DNA of 64,000 nucleotides from Candidatus Oscillochloris fontis. GTDB lineage: Bacteria; Chloroflexota; Chloroflexia; Chloroflexales; Chloroflexaceae. The notes below the pieces were generated by a model. That model was not told the origin of the DNA. It made no database searches and saw only the letters and a program-made list of their open reading frames with translations. Made by a program: the position numbers and the translations under genes. The stretch covers positions 1 to 64,000 of the forward strand of contig NZ_RYFD01000008.1 in NCBI RefSeq assembly GCF_004138135.1, written 5' to 3'. Shown here one piece after another: positions 3,041 to 61,866 of this stretch. The stretch's first letter is position 1, and every line of letters begins with the position of its first letter.

Positions 3041-3748
3041 ATGACCACTGCCTTGATCACAACCAGCGCTCTGGCCCGCAGTTACGCCATGGGTAAGACA
3101 AGTGTGGCCGCGCTGCGTGGGGTGGATCTGACGGTGCAGCCGGGTGAGTTCGTGGCGCTGGTGGGGCCGAGTGGCAGCGGGAAGAGTACGCTGCTGCACC
3201 TGATCGGTGGTTTGGTGCGCCCTAGTGCCGGTGAGGTGTGGGTGCATGGTTTGGAGTTGGGGCGCAGTAGCGATGCCGAGTTGGTGGCCTACCGCCGCGA
3301 TACGCTTGGTTTTATCTTCCAGAGCTTCAACCTCTTACCGATCAAGTCGGCATGGGAGAATGTGGCCGTACCACTCATGCTCGCCGGTGCGCCGCTAGCC
3401 ACTCGCAAGGCGCGTGCCCTCACATTGCTCGATCAACTCGGCTTGGCCGCCCGCGCCGATCATCGCCCCTCGGAACTCAGCGGCGGTGAACAACAGCGCG
3501 TCGCCATCGCCCGCTCTCTGGCCAACCGTCCGCGCCTACTCCTCGCCGACGAACCCACTGGCAACCTCGACTCGCGCACTGGGAGCGAGATTATGGGCCT
3601 TCTCCAGCGCCTTGTGCGTGACGAGGGGCTGACCATGCTGCTCGTCACCCATGATATGGGTGTGGCCAGTTTTGCCGACCGCATCGTGCATCTACGCGAT
3701 GGGATGATCGAGCGGATTGAGGCGGTGGGGCACAATGCGCAATCGTAG
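3041..3748 (+). CDS. ABC transporter ATP-binding protein (LolD/MacB type)
   Basis: 235 residues, the usual length for this family. Walker A GPSGSGKST, Q-loop region FIFQSFNLLP, signature LSGGEQQRVAIARSLA, Walker B LLLADEPT and H-loop LLVTHDMG are all intact. Sequence style matches the ATPases that drive FtsX/MacB-like permeases (lipoprotein release, efflux or cell-envelope mechanotransmission). No permease gene is next to it, so its membrane partner must be encoded elsewhere. The gene ends inside a hairpin that also ends the convergent HD-GYP gene. Confidence 0.93.
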   Translation: MTTALITTSALARSYAMGKTSVAALRGVDLTVQPGEFVALVGPSGSGKSTLLHLIGGLVRPSAGEVWVHGLELGRSSDAELVAYRRDTLGFIFQSFNLLPIKSAWENVAVPLMLAGAPLATRKARALTLLDQLGLAARADHRPSELSGGEQQRVAIARSLANRPRLLLADEPTGNLDSRTGSEIMGLLQRLVRDEGLTMLLVTHDMGVASFADRIVHLRDGMIERIEAVGHNAQS

Positions 3749-3772
3749 AGACGCAAAATATTGCGTCTCTAC
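3745..3772. terminator. shared stop-codon hairpin, bidirectional terminator-like
   Basis: Perfect 12-bp inverted repeat (3745-3756 / 3761-3772, arm GTAGAGACGCAA) with loop AATA. Its left end supplies the TAG stop of the ABC ATPase (3746-3748). Its right end, read on the minus strand, supplies the TAG stop of the HD-GYP gene (3769-3771). The same GTAGAGACGC motif recurs at 37912 and 49553. No long T-run follows, so terminator activity is inferred. Confidence 0.6.
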
Positions 3773-19318: not shown

Positions 19319-19362
19319 GTAAGCCATGGTTCGTCGCCACGTGACGACGAACCATGGCTTAC
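19319..19362. repeat. 18-bp perfect palindrome after the dipeptidase gene
   Basis: Arms 19319-19336 (GTAAGCCATGGTTCGTCG) and 19345-19362 with an 8-base loop. It follows a short tandem of CAGATTACG units (19288-19310) ending in a T-run. Bases 19363-19392 look like a broken right half of the MITE core. Between 19280 and 19683 nothing codes for protein: only this palindrome and MITE copies. Confidence 0.75.
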
Positions 19363-23832: not shown

Positions 23833-23898
23833 AACCACCCCGTGCCATTATAGGACTTGTACTATATGCTACAAGTCCTATAATGGCACGGGGTGGTT
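23833..23898. promoter_or_regulatory. 29-bp perfect inverted repeat before padR
   Basis: Arms 23833-23861 and 23870-23898 are exact reverse complements around the 8-base loop CTATATGC. The left arm ends 1 base from the padR ATG, so it lies in the 5' leader or promoter. It is much longer than a usual PadR operator. It could be an operator, a structured leader or the remnant of an element. Confidence 0.65.
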
Positions 23899-27570: not shown

Positions 27571-27677
27571 GTGGGGGTTTGGGGGCGACAAGTCGCCCCC
27601 GAAGATCTTTTTTGGTTGCTCTGTGGCGGCGAAGCCGCCACAGAGCAACCAAAATGGGGTTTGGGGCGTTGCCCCAA
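27571..27677. repeat. triple-hairpin repeat, copy 1
   Basis: Three hairpins in a row: C (27581-27600, GGGGGCGAC arms), B (27611-27630 / 27634-27653, a perfect 20-bp stem with loop GAA) and A (27661-27677, TTGGGGC arms). The inner six bases of stem B (GGCGGC) are conserved; the outer part (TTTGGTTGCTCTGT) is unique to this copy. It lies between the methyltransferase start and the rplT stop. Confidence 0.88.
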
Positions 27678-31910: not shown

Positions 31911-32011
31911 TTCGGGGGCGGCACAGCCGCCCCCGAAGATCTTTATTTGGTGTATGTTTGGTGGCGTAGCCGCCAAACATACACCAACATGGGGGTTTGG
32001 GGCTACGCCCC
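31911..32011. repeat. triple-hairpin repeat, copy 2
   Basis: C hairpin 31911-31938 (GGGGGCGGC arms), B hairpin 31947-31965 / 31969-31987 (19 bp, one G-T pair, loop GTA) and A hairpin 31999-32011 (GGGGC arms). The outer part of stem B (TTGGTGTATGTTT) differs from all other copies. It lies in the divergent spacer before pdxS; outer TACCATA-type inverted ends at 31861 and 32031 may mark its limits. Confidence 0.88.
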
Positions 32012-49402: not shown

Positions 49403-49437
49403 CTAAAACCCATGGTTGGGGCTGCGCCTCAGACCCG

Positions 49438-49518
49438 CTTTTTCTCTCTTCTTTTGGCGGCGAAGCCGCCAAAAGAAGAGAGAAAAAGTTCTTCGGGGGC
49501 GGCGAAGCCGCCCCCGAA
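49438..49518. repeat. triple-hairpin repeat, copy 3
   Basis: B hairpin 49438-49461 / 49465-49488 is a perfect 24-bp stem with loop GAA; C hairpin is 49492-49518 (TTCGGGGGCGGC arms). The A hairpin (about 49416-49430) is degenerate. The outer stem sequence CTTTTTCTCTCTTCTTTT is unique to this copy. Confidence 0.88.
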
Positions 49519-49552: not shown

Positions 49553-49581
49553 GTAGAGACGCCCCACCGGGGCGTCTCTAC
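49553..49581. terminator. GTAGAGACGCCCC hairpin at the end of the RTX-like gene
   Basis: 13-bp perfect arms (49553-49565 / 49569-49581) with loop ACC. The right arm, read on the minus strand, supplies the TAG stop of the RTX-like gene. It is related to the 17-bp tandem unit and to the hairpin at 3745. Confidence 0.6.
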
Positions 49582-53685: not shown

Positions 53686-53747
53686 TATCGTTGCTCCTCA
53701 ATGAATGCAACACACATGGGTGGAAGGGAAGGGCATGTGCAAAGTTC

Positions 53748-53848
53748 TTGGGGCTATGCCCCAAACCCCAATTTTTGGTAGTGTTTGGCGGCTACGCCGC
53801 CAAACACTACCAAAAAAGATCTTCGGGGGCGGCGCAGCCGCCCCCGAA
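53748..53848. repeat. triple-hairpin repeat, copy 4
   Basis: A hairpin 53748-53764 (TTGGGGC arms), B hairpin 53772-53792 / 53796-53816 (perfect 21-bp stem, loop TAC) and C hairpin 53822-53848 (TTCGGGGGCGGC arms, loop GCA). The outer stem B sequence TTTTTGGTAGTGTTT is unique. It fills the spacer between ahcY and metK. Confidence 0.9.
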
Positions 53849-53890
53849 CCCCCACCGGAGGTGGAAGGGGCGATCTTCTGGCAGAAAGGC

Positions 53891-58458: not shown

Positions 58459-58600
58459 CCTCTCATCTTCCGATGGGCACACAGATGCCCAGCGCAGGAA
58501 TTAGCACCGTTCTGGATGGAACATCAAAGCAAACCTTTGAGTATCCTTCAGGCGGTTGCCGGGCTTCATCGGGCCAGTCCCTCAGCCCATCTCGATGAGG
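58459..58600 (-). promoter_or_regulatory. SAM-I (S-box) riboswitch
   Basis: On the minus strand the aptamer shows all hallmark blocks: CCTCATC opening P1, GAGGGACTGGCCC, GATGAAGCCCGGCAACC, GGTGCTAATTCCTGC and the closing GATGAGAGG. It sits directly before mtnA with a terminator and an evident antiterminator, so high SAM should switch transcription off. The genes downstream (mtnA, MetE-like, PfkB) follow without another obvious promoter. Confidence 0.97.
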
Positions 58601-58698
58601 TCTATGGAGTCACCCAGTTCAATAACCGGGCGAACATTGGCGGCGATTATAGCATGGCTATGAGTCTGGTGCAAACGAGTTCGCGGCTTCTCGTAGTA

Positions 58699-61822: not shown

Positions 61823-61866
61823 GATAGGGGATCAAGCGCGAAATGTCTCGCGCTTGATCCCCTATC
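61823..61866. terminator. 19-bp perfect hairpin between infB and rbfA
   Basis: Arms 61823-61841 (GATAGGGGATCAAGCGCGA) and 61848-61866 with loop AATGTC. On the minus strand it follows the infB stop by 4 bases; the next bases are CTTCTTTTTCC, a T-rich run, so partial termination or mRNA processing between infB and rbfA is plausible. Confidence 0.65.

Follow-up and report, generated by a model that had tools for sequence, protein, structure and literature searches.

Compensatory changes on the two sides of a stem are usually taken as proof of an RNA structure under selection. Stems can also be created and maintained by template switching, as has been inferred (PMC8794818), and the reported signature of this process is the homogenisation of the two arms together with inversion of the spacer between them (PMC8604942).

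Bacterial miniature transposons (MITEs) are short, non-coding and present in many copies, with terminal inverted repeats, target duplications and stem-loops, and the element described here, from the green filamentous bacterium Candidatus Oscillochloris fontis, resembles them in all these respects. To our knowledge, no MITE has been reported in which the sequence of an internal palindrome varies between copies, and we found none in the open-access literature searched. The window analysed here is a stretch of 64,000 nucleotides (contig NZ_RYFD01000008.1, positions 1 to 64,000), in which a preliminary description had noted four copies of a triple-hairpin repeat, at 27571, 31911, 49438 and 53748, and had proposed either copying of one arm onto the other or strong structural selection to account for their copy-specific central stems.

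Results

The four copies are members of an interspersed, non-coding and non-autonomous MITE family with three hairpins. Full-length copies measure 147-151 bp and are bounded by CAGGGCATGTGCAAAGTC...GACTTTGCACATGCCCTG; their ends consist of CAGGGCATG(T/G)GCAAAGTC and its reverse complement, and terminal inverted repeats were accepted as 16-nt ends with no more than 3-4 mismatches, in inverted orientation and about 150 bp apart. A 10-bp target duplication is exact in 17 of 40 full-length copies and has one mismatch in 8 of the 40. The copy number is high, the central-hairpin pattern GGCGGCNNNGCCGCC occurring 399 times in the genome versus 9 times for the reversed pattern. Between the ends, CACCTCCGGTGG comes first and is followed by the GC-rich hairpin 1 of about 12 bp; a spacer, GATCTT, then leads to the central hairpin, after which comes hairpin 3, of about 7 bp. 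Deletion derivatives of 71-74 bp and 109 bp are also present. What the preliminary description overlooked is that the repeat belongs to a MITE, with inverted repeats at its termini and target duplications of 10 bp.

Exact copies of the terminal sequence were found in an Oscillochloris MAG (LJ-3-4m_bin-0978) and in Oscillochloris sp. ZM17-4. The search for an autonomous partner gave negative results throughout: DDE_Tnp_1 matches were without MITE ends, no pair of MITE ends with a matching target duplication was found at 0.7-2.6 kb spacing in the DNA examined, the ORFs next to an unpaired MITE end, close to where a contig stops, included no transposase, and a MITE taken from a different Chloroflexales MAG led to no autonomous partner either. 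We also observed a second family with the same core and perfect 19-bp arms starting GCTTGTTGGGG or similar (G000 C1:70007, C1:129005, C6:24693 and C6:116857). The terminal repeats of the MITE also surround very different short interiors at L105:6136-6250, L149:394-514, L158:3321-3448 and L108:3791-3931, in records from Anaerolineae, Herpetosiphonaceae, Chloroflexaceae and Dehalococcoidia, with a 10-bp target duplication (0-1 mismatch) in three of the four. Many MITEs across Chloroflexota may be served by one mobilisation system.

Within the window, only the copy at 53748 (53731-53863) keeps an end, the left terminal inverted repeat GGGCATGTGCAAAGT (53731-53745, plus strand); it is truncated and lacks the other end, and the ends of the other window copies are degraded or lost. 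Its three hairpins lie on the minus strand: hairpin 3, TTGGGGC-TAT-GCCCCAA (53748-53764), the central hairpin of 21 bp (53772-53816), with core GGCGGC-TAC-GCCGCC and variable arms TTTTTGGTAGTGTTT / AAACACTACCAAAAA, and hairpin 1, TTCGGGGGCGGC-NNN-GCCGCCCCCGAA, followed by GATCTTTTTT on the strand of the element (53822-53848). The copy at 49438, also on the minus strand, is of a sister type with arms CTTTTTTCTC and comprises a degenerate hairpin 3 (GGGGCTGCGCCTC; 49418-49430), a 24-bp central hairpin with pyrimidine-type arms (CTTTTTCTCTCTTCTTTT) and loop GAA (49438-49488), and hairpin 1 (49492-49518). On the plus strand, the copy at 31911 has hairpin 1 with loop ACA (31911-31937), a central hairpin of 19 bp including one G-T pair, with loop GTA (31947-31987), and hairpin 3 (GGGGCTACGCCCC; 31999-32011), and the copy at 27571 has a diverged hairpin 1, TTTGGGGGCGA-CAAG-TCGCCCCCGAA (27578-27603), a 21-bp central hairpin with arms TTTTGGTTGCTCTGT / ACAGAGCAACCAAAA and loop GAA (27610-27654), and hairpin 3, TTGGGGC-GTT-GCCCCAA (27661-27677).

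The existence of the four copies and the lengths of their central stems (21, 19 with one G-T pair, 24 and 21 bp) are therefore as first described. The flanking hairpins are shared in general, with two exceptions: hairpin 1 of the copy at 27571 reads GGGGGCGA-CAAG-TCGCCCCC, and the copy at 49438 has GGGGC-TGC-GCCTC in place of GGGGC-NNN-GCCCC. Folding as single-stranded DNA gave z-scores of -8.9 to -11.2, and no shuffled sequence folded equally well. Elsewhere in the window, another palindromic repeat, GTAGAGACG...CGTCTCTAC, occurs at 49553-49581 and 3745-3772 with inner arm bases that differ between the two copies, and long perfect inverted repeats outside the MITE family, with arms of 29, 19 and 18 bp, lie at 23833-23898, 61823-61866 and 19319-19362.

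Rfam covariance models identified no known RNA family at the feature; their sole match in the window was a SAM riboswitch elsewhere (RF00162, 64.6 bits; 58460-58601, minus strand), a few kb from the genes for S-adenosylmethionine synthetase and S-adenosylhomocysteine hydrolase. The central hairpin was rejected as an intrinsic terminator because, whichever strand is read, its 5' side has T-tracts and its 3' side A-tracts. As a separate observation, hairpin 1 at 53822-53848 together with the following GATCTTTTTT is terminator-like on the minus strand, which is the strand of both flanking genes, the same synthetase and hydrolase.

To compare arms across the genome, we defined central hairpins by context alone (hairpin 1 plus core), without using the arms, over 2.15 Mb. 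This gave 107 matches, from which three mis-registered neighbours were set aside, leaving 104 true central hairpins. The conservation of the core is itself no evidence, because the core served to find the copies. The 104 hairpins carry 60 distinct 15-nt arms, and over 13 arm positions 98.9% of the cells (one position in one copy) form Watson-Crick pairs, compared with 71.1% in shuffles. Over the same positions, 245 cells had changed on both sides and 15 were broken; these counts exceed the number of events, since copies share ancestry, and a lower bound is about 45 distinct states. Inner positions 1-6 were always paired, and pairing was about 90% at positions 14-15, where it ends in most copies.

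The 5' arms are for the most part T/G-rich variants of TTTTTGKKGTKTTTT or of TTTTTCTC plus 7 nt, and two 15-mer arms make up 33 of the 104 copies, so to call the arms unrelated, as was done at first, is too strong. Nevertheless, no single arm is found in most copies, nor did further copies with generally unpaired arms emerge, and the two-sided pairing initially seen in four copies holds for the family. Between full-length copies with 5 differences in 108 backbone sites, the arms already differ at 2 of 14 positions per side, and in all 25 of the closest full-length pairs listed the left and right arms showed equal numbers of differences.

The other two hairpins of the same copies serve as internal controls. 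Over the inner 9 pairs of hairpin 1 we counted 24 two-sided versus 84 broken cells, and over the inner 5 pairs of hairpin 3 one two-sided versus 54 broken cells (broken cells, central arm against hairpin 1: Fisher P 5e-20). Other genomic 16-bp hairpins with 3-nt loops were perfect in 29 cases, with one mismatch in 24 and two in 33, compared with 140, 2 and 5 for those with the core. The pairing is therefore kept by something peculiar to the central hairpin.

One way to obtain perfect arms would be inheritance, if only elements with a perfect hairpin transposed and each insertion brought the arms of one of many old sources. The 36 copies with both ends, in which no cell is broken, would fit such a scheme with their 10 arm types. 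However, the 68 copies that lack one or both ends have 49 arm types and are still paired (9 of 816 cells broken over the inner 12 pairs), as are the 38 copies without recognisable ends, whose arms are the most diverse (32 arm types, 7 of 456 cells broken), and it is in those same copies that hairpins 1 and 3 have decayed. We therefore regard inheritance as quite improbable. The arms thus seem to diversify once a copy has been inserted, without losing their pairing, unless the older copies stem from many source elements that have since been lost.

Along a spanning tree of 49 distinct arms, the two-sided changes comprised 52 transversions and 13 transitions (about 80% transversions), mainly T-A to G-C, and the one-sided changes in hairpins 1 and 3 comprised 122 transversions and 121 transitions (50%; P 1.8e-5 against the arms). 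As the two-sided changes are mostly transversions, their route did not lead through G-T steps, which would give transitions. Of the 104 central loops, 94 are GNA or the complementary TNC, and reverse-complementary loops occur at similar counts (GAA 28 and TTC 25, GTA 14 and TAC 10, GCA 9 and TGC 7), also on identical arms, so that arm homogenisation is accompanied here by spacer inversion. The loops of hairpin 3 are mostly in one orientation (54:12). Stems of at least 19 bp, reaching past the normal end, were found in four copies versus 0.07 in shuffles, and at C100:27803 the right side has AAGATC, the complement of the left spacer. In one copy (C56), a MITE has inserted into the left arm with target duplication TTTTTGGTGC, and the right flank CAGGGG, unique among the 104 copies, is complementary to the inserted MITE end CCCTG; this single case could be a chance match, right flanks starting CAGG being present in 2 of the 104 copies.

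These observations bear on structural selection, the second of the explanations first proposed, according to which the hairpin has a function, at the RNA or DNA level, and broken arms are purged until a second mutation restores pairing. That the central stem alone is kept perfect, that the core and loop class are conserved, and that hairpin order and pairing are kept with different arms at loci of several genera of the family (G001, G002, G004, G008, G016 and G027 among them) would all be expected from a functional hairpin. But changes that are mainly transversions do not follow the G-T route, loops in both orientations are ill-suited to a strand-specific RNA, stems extend beyond their normal end, and copies without recognisable ends stay perfect; moreover, each of more than 100 copies would need to be under selection by itself. 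On balance we consider it unlikely. It is less probable by far that copies swap entire hairpins by recombining at the GGCGGC/GCCGCC cores that they have in common: core-to-core deletions do exist, as in the 109-bp derivatives, where the left half of hairpin 1 is fused to the central hairpin's right arm, but such crossovers yield mismatched arms, as in these very derivatives, and exchange would redistribute arms without creating any.

Discussion

We infer, from the comparison of dispersed copies in one genome, that copying of one arm onto the other by template switching or fold-back priming (quasi-palindrome correction) is the best explanation, with a probability of roughly 0.7. Between the two mechanisms first proposed, arm-to-arm copying is thus the one favoured, by the transversions, the inverted loops, the overlong stems and the pairing of copies without intact ends. 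In such a process, the central palindrome would become single-stranded or be extruded, and the GC core with its three-base loop (GNA on one strand) would fold first and then prime or guide synthesis, by which one arm would be made anew to complement the other. Any point mutation that arises on one side would be either erased or copied across, giving a two-sided change in a single step, and copying would now and then invert the loop or continue beyond the end of the stem. It would act at each copy after insertion and require neither transposition nor function.

Because GNA loops with a closing C-G pair are known for their extreme stability in DNA (PMC4686876), a fold at the DNA level is plausible and would explain the constant core. 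It is tempting to speculate that the GNA-capped GC core is a built-in self-priming device and the MITE palindrome a self-templating, fast-changing sequence, with arm rewriting far more frequent than at the ordinary hairpins of the genome, although we would rate this as doubtful. Some observations count against the copying model. Hairpin 1, with 12 bp, high GC content and inverted loops too, has not stayed perfect, which means that stem length or some other factor must play a part, and the model does not account for the T/G bias of the 5' arms (T 950, G 320, C 47, A 35). Nor would the process be a general one, as other 16-bp hairpins of the genome are more often imperfect than perfect.

If copying is indeed responsible, a dispersed element, even in copies without intact ends, presents textbook two-sided changes that are better explained at the level of DNA, with the decaying neighbour hairpins as a built-in control. 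This is a caution that covariation alone is insufficient to infer RNA function. The element would offer dozens of natural examples of a known but rarely catalogued mutation process in a single genome, where at least about 45 distinct paired states are enough to measure its spectrum, tract length and loop inversion.

Among described systems, REP/BIME sequences are likewise abundant intergenic palindromes, and the Oscillochloris element is set apart from them by its terminal inverted repeats and 10-bp target duplications. In the mitochondrial palindromes of Nematomorpha, the arms also evolve together and two-sided changes keep the repeats perfect, but those repeats reach 284 bp and lie in coding genes (PMC6649704), whereas the MITE palindrome has about 40-50 bp and belongs to a mobile non-coding element. 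A further parallel is quasi-palindrome correction, in which arms are made identical, spacers are inverted and several bases change at once, as in the MITE hairpin, and which has been described at scattered inverted repeats in yeast genes and in RNA genes across phylogeny (PMC8604942, PMC8794818). The present case differs from those studies in its basis, over 100 copies of a single element dispersed through one genome, in which the neighbouring hairpins provide internal controls. Most likely, then, the mechanism is one already known, and it is the density of cases that is unusual.
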